Assembly: GCA_016927565.1 (NCBI GenBank)
Contig: JAFGMK010000025.1
Coordinates: forward strand, 1 to 40,671
Source: Minisyncoccota bacterium
Lineage (GTDB): Bacteria; Patescibacteriota; Microgenomatia; PFEM01; JAFGMK01
Direction: 5' to 3'
DNA length: 40,671 nucleotides
Part shown: piece by piece, positions 3,077 to 40,557 of the stretch
Numbering within the stretch: position 1 is the first letter of the stretch
Layout: every line of letters starts with the position of its first letter
Position numbers and translations under genes: made by a program
Notes under the pieces: generated by a model
What the model saw: the letters and a program-made list of their open reading frames with translations, nothing else
Told to the model about the DNA's origin: nothing
Databases searched by the model: none

Positions 3077-3166
3077 CAAAGTTATTTTATCGTTGGCAGG
3101 AAGCAAATGCAACTGAGAGCTTTTTTGCAAACGGTTTGAGATTGCTGAATAAACTCTTGATTCATT

Positions 3167-3284
3167 GTCATTCAGAGGCCGAAGGCCGAAGAATCCCATC
3201 CGAAAAGGCCGAAGAATCCCTTTGGATTCAAGCCGGGGATCCTTCGCTTGGCTCAGGATGACGGTGAGAAAGGCTCAGGATGAC
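3167..3284. repeat. Dispersed repeat, copy 1
   Basis: It starts with GTCATTCAGAG and ends with CTCAGGATGAC, which are imperfect inverses of each other (9 of 11). Inside are a duplicated CCGAAGAATCCC block and two copies of a 22-nt GGCTCAGGATGAC-type unit (3250 and 3272). The same blocks recur at 40320-40557, and a diverged form is at 18153-18255. The element lies between def and the orphan gene at 3398. Confidence 0.85.
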
Positions 3285-18152: not shown

Positions 18153-18255
18153 GGCTCGGGATGACATAGTTCTGGTCTCAGCCTCATTCCGAACGAGGCG
18201 AAGGATTTCTTTCGGCAGGGGATTTTTCCCTTGTCGTTGGCGGGGTCAGAATGAC
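18153..18255. repeat. Dispersed repeat, diverged copy 2
   Basis: This copy contains GGCTCGGGATGAC (18153-18165), CATTCCGAACGAGGCGAAGGA (from 18185) and ends in GGGGTCAGAATGAC (18242-18255). It shares the block logic of the copies at 3167 and 40320 but is more diverged. The 18135-18368 gap holds this element and the promoter of the next gene, and nothing else that I can see. Confidence 0.65.
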
Positions 18256-18296
18256 AATAAATCAGGGCGTTGTCCAACAGTCTCTGCAGCGAAAAT

Positions 18297-23726: not shown

Positions 23727-25328
23727 TTACGGAAAAGCGATTTTAGTTCTTTTACCCCGTAAATAAATCCCTTCAGCAATGGCCGGATGTTTTTTCTTAA
23801 TCAGGTCATAAGTTGGCCACATTAATCTTCTGATAAAGGCGTGAGCAGTATCGCCGGTCCTTAATTTGATCAGGTGGAAGGCTTCTCTGGTATTAAACTG
23901 GGCGATGGCGGGCCGGTAGTGAAGCCTGGTTACTGCGTATCGAGCGTCACCGGGATTGTTTTTGGCAACTTTTTTAAAAAGCCTTTCTGCTTGTTCGACT
24001 GCTTGTTCAACTGCTTTGGTGCAGCCATGAAATTTTTTGTTTTTGCTTTTATCCATTATTGTGGCTAAAGGGGGTATCATGTGCCCCCATTTAATATCAA
24101 GAGGTTTAGCGGAATAGCTTTGGATTCGGTGGCGTTTAAATTCTCGCCAGTCACCGTAAGTCATTTGAGGAAATTCGTAGATATAGCCCCCGTTAAATTC
24201 AAAAGCCCTTGGCGGCATATCGTGAGCGCCGATTCCGGCTGAATTTATTTTTCCTTTTTCAAAGTCATTAAATAAAAGGTTTTCCTTTAAGATTCTTTGA
24301 ATCATTTTTTGCCTTTTTGTTTTGGGGAAATGATTGATTTTTGAAACCAGATCTTTAAAAGTGCCGGTTTTTTCATCTTCAAAAATAAAAGCAGCTAAAA
24401 TTAGGGCCTCAATCTTTTTAGATTGGACTATTTCTGTCCGGGCGGCAGTTTCCCCTTTGATTTTGTCCAATTTTCCCTTCAGATTGAATTCTTTAATAAG
24501 TAAATTTCTCCTGGTTGGCCAGGAAGCCAGGTAGGGATCAAAATTAGCGTATTTTACTAATGTGGGAGCAATTTCTAAGGCGGCTCTTTTAAAGGCTCGG
24601 CCGATCTTTCTTAAACTCGGGGAAGGACCGGACAAAAATTTCTTAATGGCATGTTCTCCTTCGGAGGCGTTCATAGTAACGCCAATACTGGTTAATCTGG
24701 AGGCGGGTAAGAGATTTTTATACTGATCAGCGGCATGTTTGGTTAGCCGGGACAGCCAGGCCTTTTCCGTTTCTTCAGAATGGTAATATCCTTGGCGAAG
24801 TTCTTTAAACTGGTTTTGGGCTTCGTCAGAAAAAATCCATTCTTCAGCCTTGCTGGTTAACCGGTCGCAGGTTTTAAACAAAAGCTGATGAGTTTTTCGC
24901 CAGAGCTTTGTCAGCGCTTTGTCTTTCAGAACCGACTGGGGAGTAAAATAGCCTTTGCCCTGGCGGCTTTTAAAACGGGCTGAAAATTCGGTGTAAGAAG
25001 CCAGCCGATTATCGGTAATCGCATCGCCATCAGCTGAGGCGACATCTTCGATGGCAATCTGAAGGATGGCGTGCTCGCCGACCGACTTGTGGCCGTAACC
25101 CTCAATCGAAACTGTCCATTTTTGATGAAAGCGGGCCGCGCCTTCTTCATCAACGGAAGAGGAAATTTCGTCAAAGCTGCCGGGGGAGCGGGAAATCCGG
25201 GCGAAGATAACGGCGTTTTCCTCGGCTGTCCGGAGTAGTTTTCGAGCAATTTCTTGTTTGTTTTTGGGGATGAGCTCTAAGATTTTTTCCTTCGCCTGTC
25301 GGTGGATCCCAACGGGGAAAACCTTCAT
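23727..25328 (-). CDS. thyX: FAD-dependent thymidylate synthase, tandem ThyX-domain form
   Basis: ThyX methylates dUMP to dTMP using methylene-THF and FADH2. The protein has 533 aa, twice the size of a classical ThyX (~220-250). The N half holds the nucleotide/FAD motif as RLASYTEFSARF (R108, S111, E114, S116, R118), preceded by HKSVGEHA. The C half holds RHRIQSYS (399-404), followed by a degenerate continuation, and FNTREAFHLIKLRTGDTAHAFIR near the end. It looks like two ThyX modules in one chain, each with part of the motif. It begins 4 nt after the dUTPase/dCTP deaminase-like gene, so dUMP supply and use are coupled. It is convergent with nrdD. Confidence 0.88.
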   Translation of the reverse strand: MKVFPVGIHRQAKEKILELIPKNKQEIARKLLRTAEENAVIFARISRSPGSFDEISSSVDEEGAARFHQKWTVSIEGYGHKSVGEHAILQIAIEDVASADGDAITDNRLASYTEFSARFKSRQGKGYFTPQSVLKDKALTKLWRKTHQLLFKTCDRLTSKAEEWIFSDEAQNQFKELRQGYYHSEETEKAWLSRLTKHAADQYKNLLPASRLTSIGVTMNASEGEHAIKKFLSGPSPSLRKIGRAFKRAALEIAPTLVKYANFDPYLASWPTRRNLLIKEFNLKGKLDKIKGETAARTEIVQSKKIEALILAAFIFEDEKTGTFKDLVSKINHFPKTKRQKMIQRILKENLLFNDFEKGKINSAGIGAHDMPPRAFEFNGGYIYEFPQMTYGDWREFKRHRIQSYSAKPLDIKWGHMIPPLATIMDKSKNKKFHGCTKAVEQAVEQAERLFKKVAKNNPGDARYAVTRLHYRPAIAQFNTREAFHLIKLRTGDTAHAFIRRLMWPTYDLIKKKHPAIAEGIYLRGKRTKIAFP

Positions 25329-26219: not shown

Positions 26220-27539
26220 ATGAATCAGGGTGAGGCAGTTTTTGATTTGATCCGCCAGGAGGAAAAAAGACAGAAAGAGGAGCTGGCGCTGATTCCGTCA
26301 GAGAATTATTGCTCTTCGGCAGTCCGGAAAGCATTGGGAAGTATTCTGACCGATAAATACTCGGAAGGCTACCCGGGGAAGCGTTATTATCAGGGAAACC
26401 GGATTATTGATGAAGTTGAGAGTTTGGCCATCAATCGGGCCAAAAAAGTTTTCGGCGTTGCTCAAGTTAATATTCAGCCTTACTCGGGATCGCCGGCTAA
26501 TCTGGCGATTCTTTCGGCTGTTTGCCAGCCCGGCGACCGGGTGCTTTCTCAGCATCTTTCCATGGGCGGCCATCTCTCGATGGGTCAGCAAGCCTCAATG
26601 ACTTCCAGATTTTTTAAAGCTTTTTATTACGGTTTATCAAAAAGAGGCCAGATCGATTGGGATGGGCTTGAATCCCAGGTCAGAAAACAGAGGCCGAAAA
26701 TAATCTTTTGCGGCGGGACGGCCTTTACCAAGGTTTTTGATTTTCCCCGTTTTGGCCGGCTGGCTGATGAATCCGGAGCTTTTTTCGTAGCCGATATTTC
26801 CCATATTGCCGGACTGGTTGCAGCTGGCGTTCATCCTTCGCCGGCAAGGTCGGCTCATTTGATTATGACAACGACTCATAAAACTCTCCGGGGTCCGCGA
26901 GGGGCAATGATTATGGTAACGGCTAAAGGCTTAAAGAAAGATCCGGAGCTGGGGAAAAAAATAAATCAGGCGGTTTTCCCCGGGCTTCAGGGCGGGCCGC
27001 ATAATAATAATATTGCCGGTGTGGCCGTCGCTCTAAACGAGGCCCGAGCCGCCGGGTTCAAAAAATATGCTGTTCAAATAGTTAAAAATGCCAAAGCTCT
27101 GGCGACCAGTTTAAAAAGATATCGTTTTAAATTAATTGGCGGCGGAACCAAAAACCATTTAATCTGGATTGATTTAAATAACAAAAAAATTGACGGTTGG
27201 ACGGCTGCTTGGGCGCTTGAAGCAGCGGGAATAATTGCCAACCGCCAAACAATACCTTTTGATCAGCGCTCGCCTTACTATCCTTCCGGTTTGCGTTTGG
27301 GAACGCCGGCAATTACCACTCGGGGGATGAAGGAACCGCAAATGCGCCTGATTGGCCAATGGATTAACGAGGGTTTGGAGGCGGCCCGGAAAATGAATTT
27401 AGAAGGGATTGGCAGTCCGGATCGGGAAAGAGATCAGAAAGCCAGAAAAGAGTTTAAGCAAGCAGTCTTTGAAAATCAAGAACTCAGAAGAATCAAAAAA
27501 GAAGTTAAATCCCTTTGTTGCCAGTTCCCTCTTCCGTAG
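26220..27539 (+). CDS. glyA: Serine hydroxymethyltransferase
   Basis: This PLP enzyme converts serine and THF to glycine and methylene-THF, the main entry of C1 units. The 439-aa protein is of usual length. The PLP-lysine motif is TTTHKTLRGPRGAMI. Also visible are LIPSENYCS, YSEGYPGKRYYQG, YSGSPANLA, DISHIAGL and GLQGGPHNN. It lies just upstream of the folD-like gene and the TrpR-like/fchA-like pair, so the locus is a C1-folate block. The palindrome at 27549 separates it from folD. Confidence 0.97.
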   Translation: MNQGEAVFDLIRQEEKRQKEELALIPSENYCSSAVRKALGSILTDKYSEGYPGKRYYQGNRIIDEVESLAINRAKKVFGVAQVNIQPYSGSPANLAILSAVCQPGDRVLSQHLSMGGHLSMGQQASMTSRFFKAFYYGLSKRGQIDWDGLESQVRKQRPKIIFCGGTAFTKVFDFPRFGRLADESGAFFVADISHIAGLVAAGVHPSPARSAHLIMTTTHKTLRGPRGAMIMVTAKGLKKDPELGKKINQAVFPGLQGGPHNNNIAGVAVALNEARAAGFKKYAVQIVKNAKALATSLKRYRFKLIGGGTKNHLIWIDLNNKKIDGWTAAWALEAAGIIANRQTIPFDQRSPYYPSGLRLGTPAITTRGMKEPQMRLIGQWINEGLEAARKMNLEGIGSPDRERDQKARKEFKQAVFENQELRRIKKEVKSLCCQFPLP

Positions 27540-27548
27540 AATATAAAT

Positions 27549-27580
27549 CCTGATACCATGATTCGAATCATGGTATCAGG
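27549..27580. promoter_or_regulatory. Operator-like palindrome O1 (perfect, 32 bp) before folD
   Basis: The left arm is CCTGATACCATGATTC and the right arm is its exact reverse complement, with no loop. It lies 10 nt after glyA and just before the folD start, reaching the GGGGG ribosome-binding region. A -10-like TATAAA (27542-27547) with TTGCCA 18 nt upstream sits at the end of glyA, so the palindrome would cover the start of transcription. Near-copies are at 28698 and 29237. A protein operator is the best reading; an attenuating RNA hairpin is the alternative. Confidence 0.8.
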
Positions 27581-27591
27581 GGGAAATGTTT

Positions 27592-28428
27592 ATGACTGCA
27601 ATAATTTTTCAAAGTAAACGAAAAGCTGGCAAAATTCTGGAAAGAGCCAGGCAGAAAATGAACAAATGCAAGGCTATTCCGGTTTTGGAGACGGTTTTGG
27701 TCGGTTCTGATTTGATTAGTGAAAGCTATTTCAGAAGTCTTAAACGGATAGCTAAAGATTTAAGGGTTGATCTTCGGGTAAAACGGTTTGATTCTCGGGT
27801 GCGACTTGAGAAAGTGACGGATTTTTTAAAGGCTGAAACCAAGACTGAAGAAATTGACGCTCTTCTGCCTTTAGTTTCGTCTCAGTCCGGATTATTCAAT
27901 CAAAGAGAAGAGATTGTTAAAGCGATTGGTTGGACAAAGGACAGTGATTATTTAAGAGAAACTGTTTTTGGCGATAAGAAAAAGATTCCCTCTGTTTGCC
28001 GGGCAGTTTTGCTGGCTATTGAGGAGGCAGGCAAAGAGTTGTCATTTGTGCCCCGATGGGCCAAAATTCTGGTGGTGGGCGACACAGGTTTTTGGGGAAG
28101 TCGAATTAAACAGACTCTGATTGCCCGGGGTTTTGAGAATATCAGCGGAGCCAATCGTAAAACGGCTGATCTTATTTCGGCTTGTCAGACAGCGGAAGTT
28201 TTAATTTCTTGTGTTGGCCGGCAAAATTTAATTACCCGGGAAATGGTTAAAAAAGGTTCGGCTGTGATTGATATCGGTTTTTCGCTGATCGGCGGGCAAT
28301 TAGTCGGCGATGTTAATTTTGAAAGGGTTAAAAAAAGAGCCGGTTTTATTACTCCGGTTTTAGGAGGAATCGGTCCTTTGGCAACGGCTTTGGTTTTTGA
28401 TAATTTAATTGGCAGATTTTTTGAATGA
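27592..28428 (+). CDS. folD: Divergent FolD-like methylene-THF dehydrogenase/cyclohydrolase
   Basis: FolD oxidises methylene-THF to methenyl-THF and hydrolyses it to 10-formyl-THF. The 278-aa protein keeps the fold order: VLVGSDLISESYFRSLKR, KDSDYLRE (for KDVDGF), KILVVGDTGFWGSRI (for VVGRSxIVGxP), EVLISCVGR, AVIDIGF, GDVNFE and ITPVLGGIGPLATAL. Several active-site elements differ. The Lys of YxxxK, required for cyclohydrolase activity, reads YFRSL with Lys one position later. The QLPLP and PCTP motifs are not recognisable. It may therefore be a dehydrogenase only. A second ATG at 27586 is in frame; the one at 27592 is better spaced from GGGGG. Preceded by palindrome O1 and followed by a terminator. 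Confidence 0.85.
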   Translation: MTAIIFQSKRKAGKILERARQKMNKCKAIPVLETVLVGSDLISESYFRSLKRIAKDLRVDLRVKRFDSRVRLEKVTDFLKAETKTEEIDALLPLVSSQSGLFNQREEIVKAIGWTKDSDYLRETVFGDKKKIPSVCRAVLLAIEEAGKELSFVPRWAKILVVGDTGFWGSRIKQTLIARGFENISGANRKTADLISACQTAEVLISCVGRQNLITREMVKKGSAVIDIGFSLIGGQLVGDVNFERVKKRAGFITPVLGGIGPLATALVFDNLIGRFFE

Positions 28429-28470
28429 GCTGTTATCCGGCGCTTGAAGGAAACGGATACAGCAGTTTTT
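28429..28470 (+). terminator. Intrinsic terminator after folD
   Basis: GCTGTTATCCG (28429-28439) pairs with CGGATACAGC (28454-28463), a 10-bp stem with one bulge. AGTTTTTAT follows. It starts right after the folD stop codon. Confidence 0.7.
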
Positions 28471-28806
28471 ATCATTGACAAAAGCGTTTCCGGTGAATGA
28501 ATAGCCGGGGCCGAGAAGATTGGGGAATTTAATTCTGCGTCGGTTTGGAGGAGTGAAAATGAGGAATAAATTGAGTTTCGGGAAATGGTCTGCCGGTTTT
28601 AGGCCAGGATAAGATCAGAGAATTCTATTTAGAGATTGCTGCTTTTTAAAAAAGTTTTAGGGAGAGACTAAAATCAAAAGCGGAGAAGATTTTAACACTC
28701 TTGATATCATGATATGAATCATAGTATCAAGAGCGGAGGATAGTCAGGAAAAAAGACAAAGCTCGGATTTAGCAGGATTCAGGAAGGACTTGATTCAGAA
28801 ATTGGT
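28471..28806. other. Non-coding gap between folD and the TrpR-like gene
   Basis: About 336 nt without a convincing gene, apart from palindrome O2 (28698-28733). A very short frame at 28559-28612 (17 codons, beginning MRNKLSFGKW) has a good GGAGGAG seven nucleotides before its ATG and contains one Trp. TTGACA occurs at 28475 without a convincing -10. This could be a leader peptide, a gene remnant or chance. Confidence 0.4.
28698..28733. promoter_or_regulatory. Operator-like palindrome O2 (imperfect, 36 bp)
   Basis: The core TGATATCATGATAT / GAATCATAGTATCA (28702-28729) matches O1 and O3 with a few changes, and CTCT/AGAG extends it outward. No gene start lies nearby: the TrpR-like gene ends at 28807 and folD ended at 28428. 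On the plus strand TTGATA (28701-28706) with an 18-nt spacer to TATCAA could form a promoter, in the same geometry as at O3. Confidence 0.7.
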
Positions 28807-29238
28807 TTAGAAAGGGGTTTTTTTACTTAATTCTTTTTTGGCACGGTGATAGGGGGACGAATAGGGTGAAGGGGTAATTTTAGTGTAAAAATCGGCAATT
28901 TGTTCCAGCATTTTTCGGAAACGGTCTTTCTTTTCCATTGTTTTCAGGGTTTCGCGGAAACCGGCGCCTTCGGTTTTCAACCATAAAGAGACGCGGTGGA
29001 TAGTGCTAAAACTTACTTTTAGGAAATCAATAATCGTTCGGTATTGATAATTCTGCAGAAGGAGAAGAGCGATAGCCAGTCGTTTGGCGAGCATTACTTT
29101 CTCGGTGGGAGTGAGAAGATCATCAAGAAGTTTTTCAATCCCGTCTTTGTTTTTTTGACTGGCCAGTGATTCAAAAAAGACATCGTACATCCGTTGTTCA
29201 ATTTCTTTTCTCAGTTGGAGTTTGGAAATTTGAGCCAT
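28807..29238 (-). CDS. TrpR/YerC-family transcriptional regulator
   Basis: This 143-aa protein has the Trp-repressor fold. The diagnostic segment is LLTPTEKVMLAKRLAIALLLLQ, followed by the helix-turn-helix YRTIIDFLKVSFSTIHRVSLWL. Trp repressors and the YerC/YecD group share this arrangement. There is no sign that tryptophan is the ligand, and no trp genes are present. The neighbours are folate C1 enzymes. Palindrome O3 overlaps its promoter (TTGACA at 29276-29271, 18 nt, TATCAT at 29252-29247 on the minus strand) and ends next to the ATG, so autorepression and a near-leaderless mRNA are likely. The C terminus is slightly longer than TrpR (~108 aa). Divergent to the fchA-like gene. Confidence 0.9.
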   Translation of the reverse strand: MAQISKLQLRKEIEQRMYDVFFESLASQKNKDGIEKLLDDLLTPTEKVMLAKRLAIALLLLQNYQYRTIIDFLKVSFSTIHRVSLWLKTEGAGFRETLKTMEKKDRFRKMLEQIADFYTKITPSPYSSPYHRAKKELSKKTPF

Positions 29239-29270
29239 TTGATACTATGATATGAATCATGGTATCAAAT
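29237..29270. promoter_or_regulatory. Operator-like palindrome O3 in the divergent trpR-like/fchA-like promoter
   Basis: The core is TGATACTATGATAT / GAATCATGGTATCA (29240-29267), with three more paired bases on each side. It spans the -10 and spacer of the minus-strand TrpR-like promoter and reaches its ATG. On the plus strand it abuts the -35 of the fchA-like promoter. One bound repressor could therefore control both genes. Confidence 0.8.
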
Positions 29271-29298
29271 TGTCAAGGCAGAATTTATTTGGTAAAGT
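29270..29298 (+). promoter_or_regulatory. Promoter of the fchA-like gene
   Basis: TTGTCA (29270-29275), a 17-nt spacer and TAAAGT (29293-29298), preceded by TGG as an extended -10. AAAGGAG stands 6 nt before the ATG at 29339. The -35 touches palindrome O3. Confidence 0.65.
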
Positions 29299-29338: not shown

Positions 29339-29926
29339 ATGGCTAAGCCAATTAAATCTGAAAGTTCCCAAGACCTGGCCCGGGTTTCTTTTGGAGAGAT
29401 TTGCCGATTAGTAGGGCAAAAACAGTCAGGCTTAGGAGGCGGATCGGTGATAGCTTTATCCGGAGCATTAGCCAGTTCTCTGGGAATAAAAATTTTAAAC
29501 TTTTCTTTGAAGGGTGAAAATAATTCGGACAAAGTTTTAAAACTTGAATCCTGGTTGGAAAGAGCCGAAAAAACAACAGCTGATTTTTTAGAATTGGCGG
29601 CTGAAGATGGAATTGCCTATGCCCGATATCTTCAGGATAAACAAGTCTTTGAAAACAAGCAGGCAATTATCAGCGTGCCCTTAGTGATGGCGGAAAAAGC
29701 CAATAACCTGATGACTCTGGCAGGCTTTTTAATTAAGGAAGGCAAGCAAAGTTTTATTTCCGATAGCCGGGGAATGCTGGAGTTGGCCACAGCTTGTTTT
29801 TATGGTGCTTTGGAAACAGTCAGAATTAATTTGCCTTTAATCAAAGGAAAGGCCTGGGAGAATCAAATTCGGGAAAAAATTGAAAATCTGCTTGATTCAG
29901 TCAAGGATCTTGTCGCTCCTTCTTAA
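29339..29926 (+). CDS. Cyclodeaminase/cyclohydrolase family protein (FchA-like)
   Basis: The 195-aa helical protein belongs to the FTCD C-terminal / FchA family. Members convert formimino-THF to methenyl-THF or hydrolyse methenyl-THF to 10-formyl-THF. The family signature GLGGGSVIALSGALASSLG is at residues ~32-50. Downstream are helices with AAEDGIAYARYLQDK, VPLVMAEKANNLM and DSRGMLELATACFYGALETVRINL. In this folate block, a methenyl-THF cyclohydrolase role next to the FolD-like enzyme is the natural reading; no histidine-degradation genes are present to favour formimino-THF. A clear ribosome-binding site precedes the ATG. Convergent with the methyltransferase-like gene. Confidence 0.88.
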   Translation: MAKPIKSESSQDLARVSFGEICRLVGQKQSGLGGGSVIALSGALASSLGIKILNFSLKGENNSDKVLKLESWLERAEKTTADFLELAAEDGIAYARYLQDKQVFENKQAIISVPLVMAEKANNLMTLAGFLIKEGKQSFISDSRGMLELATACFYGALETVRINLPLIKGKAWENQIREKIENLLDSVKDLVAPS

Positions 29927-39861: not shown

Positions 39862-40299
39862 ATGCCGATTTTACCTCCTAAGGTAGCTAAGGCGATAAAA
39901 CAGGCCAAGCAAAACACGGTCGAAAAGCTGGTCGAAACGGCTGCGTCTCAGGCCGGTATTGGTCAGAAAAAATCGGATCCGGGCCGGGAAAAAATTCCGG
40001 CAGGAACCGATCCGGCCCAATGGATCGAAAAAGAAAAAGAGAAGCAAAAACAGCTGGGTATTGTCCGGCGGCACCTGCAACAACTTCAACAGGAACAGTT
40101 AAGTTTGGCTCATCAGCGGCAAAGACAGATTGAGCAAGAGAAGAATCAGGCGGAAGCGGCCAGGCAGCAGATCAGAGAGAAGGGCTTGCCTCCGGTGCCC
40201 CAGATTTCTTCCAAACCCAAAAGGGGGACGGCCCTGATGGGCAGGCGGAAAAAAGGCAAGGGCAGCGGCGAACTGCCGGCCGCCCAAAGATCAAGATAA
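39862..40299 (+). CDS. Hypothetical coiled-coil protein, Gln/Lys-rich
   Basis: I do not recognise this 145-aa protein. It has no signal peptide or membrane segment. The N-terminal ~40 residues are helical (PPKVAKAIKQAKQNTVEKLVE). The middle (residues ~55-105) is a Gln/Glu/Lys-rich likely coiled coil (QLQQEQLSLAHQRQRQIEQE). The tail is basic with Gly: PKRGTALMGRRKKGKGSG. A role with RNA or DNA is plausible from charge alone, nothing more. It starts 31 nt after recR with AAAAAGGG upstream, and the repeat block follows. Confidence 0.65.
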   Translation: MPILPPKVAKAIKQAKQNTVEKLVETAASQAGIGQKKSDPGREKIPAGTDPAQWIEKEKEKQKQLGIVRRHLQQLQQEQLSLAHQRQRQIEQEKNQAEAARQQIREKGLPPVPQISSKPKRGTALMGRRKKGKGSGELPAAQRSR

Positions 40300-40319
40300 A
40301 AAAAAGCACTCCATACCCC

Positions 40320-40557
40320 GTCATTCAGAGGCCGAAGGCCGAAAAATCCCCTTGGGGTTCAAGCCGGGAATCCTTTGCCTGGCTCAGGATGACGGTGAGA
40401 AAAGGCTCAGGATGACGGTGAGAAAAGGCTCAGGATGACGGTGAGAAAAGGCTCAGGATGACGGTGAGAAATCCCCGCCCCGTCATTCAGAGGCCGAAGG
40501 CCGAAGAATCCCCTTGGGGTTCAAGCCGGGAATCCTTTGCCTGGCTCAGGCTGTCGG
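40320..40557. repeat. Dispersed repeat, copies 3a and 3b, with tandem array
   Basis: Two copies of the GTCATTCAGAGGCCGAAGGCC element start at 40320 and 40482. Copy 3a ends in four tandem 23-nt units (starts 40381, 40404, 40427, 40450), each GGCTCAGGATGAC followed by GGTGAGAAAA. Copy 3b ends degenerately in CTCAGGCTGTCGG. The tandem units have no spacers, so this is not a CRISPR array. Confidence 0.9.

Follow-up and report, generated by a model that had tools for sequence, protein, structure and literature searches.

The window, by which we mean the whole stretch of 40,671 nucleotides that was analysed, carries a gene for a TrpR-like DNA-binding protein that lies convergent to a folD-like gene and divergent from an fchA-like gene (Table 1). 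An earlier, sequence-only reading had identified the products of this region correctly as SHMT, FolD, an FTCD_C/FchA-like protein and a Trp_repressor protein, and the three palindromes that it reported at 27549-27580, 28698-28733 and 29237-29270 were found at those positions. We found that the three are near-identical 28-bp dyads of the form TGATAY.ATGAT...ATCAT.RTATCA. A half-site scan gave 8 matches where 2.5 were expected, a number reached in no shuffle. Since the reversed full pattern had 0 matches across the whole genome, the window palindromes are not a product of chance.

The palindrome at 27549-27580 lies 12 nt past the glyA stop and 8 nt ahead of the folD ATG, as had been claimed for a palindrome at the folD start. 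That description does not suit the middle palindrome (28698-28733), which sits in the convergent spacer, 273 nt past the folD stop, where there is no gene start. The third had been placed on the trpR-like promoter towards fchA, and its core (29240-29267) does cover the promoter, with a divergent fchA promoter-like site beginning alongside. Elsewhere in the window we observed a 23-bp tandem repeat, GGCTCAGGATGACGGTGAGAAAA, together with a dispersed repeat, GTCATTCAGAGGCCGAAGGCCGAAGAATCCC, at 40286-40557, with similar copies at 3148-3271 and a weaker inverted match at 18176-18284. The window also encodes a ThyX-like protein of 533 aa (23727-25328) that has two Thy1 stretches and about twice the usual length.

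Table 1. Genes, palindromes and predicted promoter at the TrpR-like locus, with palindrome copies on other contigs of the same genome
Feature	Position	Strand	Remark
glyA (serine hydroxymethyltransferase, SHMT), neighbour	26220..27539	+	gene call
Solo palindrome copy	27549..27580, core 27551-27578		between glyA stop and folD start
folD-like gene, neighbour	27586..28428	+	gene call
Downstream palindrome of the bracketing pair	28698..28733, core 28702-28729		77 nt past trpR stop
TrpR-like DNA-binding protein, 143 aa, with C-terminal extension of ~45 aa	28807..29238	-	Pfam Trp_repressor
Upstream palindrome of the bracketing pair	29237..29270, core 29240-29267		touches trpR start codon; covers promoter -10 and spacer
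trpR promoter (predicted), TTGACA-18-TATCAT	29247..29276	-	11/12 matches
fchA-like gene (FTCD_C), divergent neighbour of the trpR-like gene	29339..29926	+	gene call
Seven further window-type palindromes	C5:38663, C15:621, C15:39160, C15:60104, C21:13165, C24:34347, C31:47		pattern scan

The TrpR-like protein scored 58.6 bits against the Pfam Trp_repressor profile (PF01371, cut-off 27), which places it in that superfamily. It scored below cut-off against both TIGR01321, the Trp operon repressor equivalog (29.9, cut-off 67.25), and TIGR02531, the YerC/HisR profile (33.8, cut-off 42.2). Of the earlier TrpR/YerC label, the TrpR fold is upheld and YerC is not. A profile of the TrpR-like family matches the TrpR-like proteins 3frw, 3g1c and 3kor of the PDB. 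Single-sequence structure prediction of the window protein gave a pLDDT of 49, too low for use, and a fold search on that model was worthless. No relatives were found in viral contigs or PHROGs, and the window genome itself holds six Pfam Trp_repressor genes. At the residues that we take to be the tryptophan pocket of E. coli TrpR (Gly85, Asn87 and Ser88) the window protein has Val83, Leu85 and Trp86. Because these residues are replaced, tryptophan appears unlikely to be its ligand.

The predicted trpR promoter is the best promoter-like site of the stretch and lies under the upstream palindrome. The transcript start would fall at or next to the ATG, so the trpR message, which has no Shine-Dalgarno sequence, is probably leaderless. 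TTGAC was present within the last 80 nt upstream of 36 of 77 TrpR-like genes; a downstream control contained it in 6 of 77. The promoter-like site under the palindrome and the enrichment of TTGAC across the family suggest that the TrpR-like protein would repress its own promoter, and the position of the palindrome fits the autoregulation that had been proposed.

The palindromes with cores at 28702-28729 and 29240-29267 bracket the TrpR-like gene as a pair, with one copy at either end. We compared both flanks of 79 TrpR-like genes collected mostly from Microgenomatia, in metagenome-assembled and incomplete genomes whose genes were called as open frames with a simple overlap rule. Among the genes of at least 125 aa, again mostly from Microgenomatia, 60 of 74 had a matched palindrome pair that scored beyond the 95% level set by 176 neighbouring genes, where about 4 of 74 would be expected (Mann-Whitney p=2e-27 for the excess); these figures come from loci fetched in favour of higher profile scores, some of which share ancestry or locus, and from several thresholds set after the data had been seen. 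The other 14 of the 74 were without a clear pair. In the collected genes the upstream dyad centre typically lies 15-24 nt ahead of the ATG and the downstream centre 16-20 nt past the stop (median +17), and the downstream copy of the window, 77 nt from the trpR stop, is farther out than this norm. Other classes of the phylum also show bracketing (for example L191, L194, L200, L203 and L211). A bracketing pair was not found for shorter TrpR-like genes of 118-120 aa (L030, L034, L036), nor for a 97-aa HisR-like gene.

The 97-aa HisR-like paralogue (L009 5779-6072; C15:38775-39074 in the window genome, G000) lies upstream of two aminotransferase-like genes and has a window-type palindrome 89 nt ahead of its start. 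TrpR-like genes of about 117-122 aa at six further loci (L190, L193, L196, L201, L210, L212) are without palindromes, and several of them lie directly upstream of a metG-like start. Such palindrome-less genes are possibly a separate housekeeping lineage.

A survey of the neighbours of TrpR-like genes found a few conserved contexts (recA, ribosomal protein genes, metG and murein hydrolase genes) and no single partner. At several loci orthologous units were found in the same place with both palindromes changed together (L019, L078, L093, L128, L129). When G132 was compared with its congeners G111 and G084, the TrpR unit was missing where the congeners have the flanking genes next to each other, and a like difference was seen between G245 and its congeners G126 and G135. 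This indicates that the unit is accessory in those two genera; the extra DNA measures about 1.0 and 1.6 kb and has other sequence in it besides the bracketed gene. The 1.6-kb stretch of G245 that its congeners lack (L085 628-2218) holds the TrpR unit and an open frame of about 200 aa. The paired layout recurs across the phylum and does not look like a switch specific to folate.

The palindromes differ between paralogues, which makes covariation between protein and palindrome testable. We took 51 proteins that share less than 60% identity. Among all residue-base links in this set, the one between residue 67 and base -13 was the strongest (z=11), with residues 77 and 78 near the top. G-13 was found in 22 of the 25 cases with Arg67 and in 0 of the 26 without it (p=1.5e-11). 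Similarly, Glu78 accompanies C-2 (p=1e-4) and Gly78 accompanies C-1 (p=0.004). In the alignment, residues 67, 77 and 78 correspond to Arg69, Ile79 and Ala80 of E. coli TrpR, which are among the six TrpR DNA-contact residues given in PMC9413887. When the HTH residues were excluded from tree building, residue 67 changed about six times, and independent pairs were concordant in 4 of 6 cases; in one discordant case (L113) the dyad centre is probably misplaced. With only about six independent changes, part of the covariation between residue 67 and base -13 is inherited. Closely similar palindromes were found beside the window protein and a protein of G012 that is only 32% identical to it, which means that the recognition code is not one to one.

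Within the half-sites we also found a repeat at an offset of 8 bp (z=5.5); every other offset gave at most 2.4. TrpR dimers bind tandem sites 8 bp apart (crystal 1trr). Since bases of the palindromes change together with the residues at DNA-contact positions of E. coli TrpR, the TrpR-fold protein very probably reads the window palindromes, as tandem dimers 8 bp apart. The covariation at these contact positions supports the role of reader that had been given to a TrpR-family protein.

The window genome (1.19 Mb in 31 contigs) contains ten window-type palindromes, three of them in the window, so the statement that there are no others holds within the window and fails for the genome. The seven further copies adjoin gyrB/holB, secF, an ABC transporter, a radical-SAM gene, a second trpR-like gene and contig ends, these genes being named from their translations without a family search. 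At the ends of contigs C24 and C31 (L012 6348-6471 and L013 1-200) two copies lie beside the same GAATAGAG-type minisatellite, a repeat that probably broke the assembly there. A TrpR-like paralogue on contig C21 is flanked by two copies of another palindrome, AGTTCAATGAACTGAATCATTGAACT, which with its variants has eleven sites in the genome; seven of these are letter-identical and an eighth differs only at a base left open by the pattern. The sites of the two paralogues (10 and 11) are mostly intergenic.

The exact window pattern was looked for in about 85,000 species, a set from which the window genome is possibly absent, and turned up in only three other genomes, each of them from Patescibacteria (Curtissbacteria, Blackburnbacteria and Levyibacteriota). 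Palindromes of this type are scarce in other genomes, a point in favour of the bracketed-operator reading given below. Against that reading, a genome of Curtissbacteria (G032) has window-type palindromes although the sole TrpR-like gene in it carries another. A perfect 28-bp window-type palindrome also lies inside miaA in Curtissbacteria (L049 7207-7234), in a genome whose only TrpR-like gene has another palindrome. We rejected this copy as proof of mobility; the MiaA protein aligns without an indel, so the copy is no evidence of insertion.

Across several genomes we placed 35 solo sites, of which 21 lie between co-directional genes, 7 between convergent and 3 between divergent genes; of the rest, 3 fall within an open frame and 1 is at the edge of a contig. 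Solo copies occupy divergent spacers less often than expected (p=0.04) and strongly avoid coding sequence. Apart from the C24/C31 pair, solo copies share no flanking sequence. A test of the identity of copies found the C21 family more uniform than independent half-site evolution predicts (p=0.02, slightly optimistic because C15:53112, which has a single mismatch, was counted as identical) and found no excess of identical copies in the window family (P=0.97). Identical asymmetric copies were therefore rejected as general proof of copying, as the signal is significant for the C21 family and not for the window family.

The sequence-only reading had proposed a local regulon of glyA, folD and fchA under the control of the TrpR-like protein, with a folate or an amino acid as its possible ligand. 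A palindrome does lie just ahead of the folD start and another between trpR and the divergent fchA, the neighbours form a one-carbon and thymidylate block (thyX, dcd, nrdD, glyA, folD, fchA), and a FolD homologue occurs near two other TrpR-like genes. In such a regulon the sites should occur at one-carbon genes alone or be conserved along with them, and neither is the case. The seven further copies stand beside unrelated genes, so that the palindrome is in part the genome-wide repeat unlinked to folate genes that had been named as counting against the proposal. The trpR-flanking pair also occurs elsewhere with unrelated neighbours, and the middle site of the window has no gene start to control. 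The proposal looked for trpR-like, folD and fchA genes to co-occur in relatives; FchA was found in only 3 of the 59 genomes searched, the window genome counted, and one of these, the same-order relative G001, has fchA beside rpsB and is without any TrpR-like gene. GlyA was found beside no other TrpR-like gene. Because the copies lie by unrelated genes and FchA does not co-occur with this type of TrpR in relatives, the folate regulon is unsupported and we consider it improbable. It is very improbable that the palindromes are RNA hairpins, either terminators or mRNA stabilisers, that have nothing to do with the TrpR-like protein. Perfect palindromes could fold as RNA and one copy is terminator-like on the minus strand; however, the dyads are mostly symmetric right across their central bases, where a hairpin loop would not need symmetry, the bases covary with DNA-contact residues, most copies are without a U-run, and the terminator count equals the shuffled expectation.

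Two other roles concern the dispersed copies. Protein bound just past stop codons might halt RNA polymerase, in which case the flanking copies would insulate the gene and the solo copies would act as protein-dependent terminators. Downstream copies usually begin a few nt past the trpR stop, and solo copies lie nearer to upstream stop codons than random spacers do (p=0.047), with convergent spacers a frequent location; this signal is statistically weak, however, and some solo copies lie 100-200 nt from any stop codon, so that we regard a roadblock of this kind as unlikely. Alternatively, the bracketed TrpR-type gene could be the master of dispersed REP-like palindromes copied by an unknown enzyme, in the role that RAYT transposases play for REPs. 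The order palindrome-gene-palindrome, the unrelated flanks of the dispersed copies, their avoidance of coding sequence and divergent promoters, and the absence of the unit between adjacent genes in congeners all agree with this, as do the eight 26-mers of the C21 paralogue, counted as identical and more uniform than expected, and five identical asymmetric copies in G016. Against it, no nuclease or transposase domain was recognised, the copy number is low (about 1-12 against tens to hundreds for REPs; PMC2817692), several units lie at conserved loci in different families, the window-type family has no excess of identical copies, and the perfect copy inside miaA leaves protein length unchanged. 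REP-like spread may have taken place, the copying signal being present in the C21 family and absent in the window family; the bracketed gene as its master is a doubtful reading. Its extension to the whole phylum, with a dedicated TrpR-type repressor whose specificity changes together with that of its palindrome and palindromes copied by an unknown route, seems rather doubtful.

We consider it quite probable that the locus is a TrpR-fold repressor gene bracketed by two copies of its own operator, of which the upstream one would be autoregulatory, and that the copy between glyA and folD is merely dispersed. In this proposal the product of 28807-29238 would be a TrpR-fold repressor whose family is found widely among the ultra-small Patescibacteria. 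Each operator would be a palindrome of 28-30 bp in which two TrpR-type sites overlap with an 8-bp offset, allowing two dimers to bind in tandem. The upstream copy would lie over the -10 region and the start of the probably leaderless promoter, where bound protein would shut off its own transcription. Past the trpR stop, the downstream copy would provide a second operator. The glyA-folD copy would be one of the dispersed solo copies and define no folate regulon.

What looked like a folate switch thus points to a general rule, that many TrpR-like genes in a large and mostly uncultured phylum have an operator at both ends. With an operator at both gene ends, each locus would itself reveal the target sequence of the protein that it encodes. 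The covariation offers a testable recognition code across dozens of natural variants, in which Arg at the position of TrpR Arg69 would read G-13. A further question posed by the paired layout and the dispersed copies is whether the spread of short palindromes can go with a repressor and need no transposase. No description linking TrpR-like proteins, palindromes and Patescibacteria was found in the literature searched, with subscription papers and preprints outside its scope.

The window protein resembles E. coli TrpR in its PF01371 fold and in its predicted autoregulation, and its family has palindromes that covary with the contact positions Arg69, Ile79 and Ala80. The tandem 8-bp spacing is also that of TrpR (crystal 1trr). 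It differs from E. coli TrpR in its score below the equivalog cut-off, its replaced pocket residues and its C-terminal extension of about 45 aa, and its family differs in having an operator at both gene ends and many paralogues in one genome, with a separate operator sequence for each. HisR/YerC of Firmicutes regulates his genes through a 20-bp motif, cacTTTAnnnnnnTAAAgtg, usually in single copy (PMC9413887). It shares with the window protein the TrpR family, palindromic operators and frequent autoregulation; however, the window protein falls below the YerC cut-off and its operator is TGATAY.ATGAT...ATCAT.RTATCA, not cacTTTAnnnnnnTAAAgtg. No his genes were evident beside window-type copies among the genes inspected. 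As with RAYTs and their REPs (PMC2817692, PMC3116915), a gene lies between two cognate palindromes, copies are dispersed between genes, and distinct protein-palindrome pairs coexist within one genome. Unlike RAYTs, the TrpR-like protein has no HUH/Y1 nuclease, Pfam finding only Trp_repressor in it, copies are far fewer, and the palindrome of the window family also serves as a predicted promoter operator. REPs around RAYTs are inverted (PMC2817692, PMC3116915); the palindromes flanking TrpR-like genes mildly favoured the direct orientation, which matched better in 26 cases against 12 for the inverted one, with 20 ties. Among known systems, RAYTs (PMC2817692) are the closest in layout.
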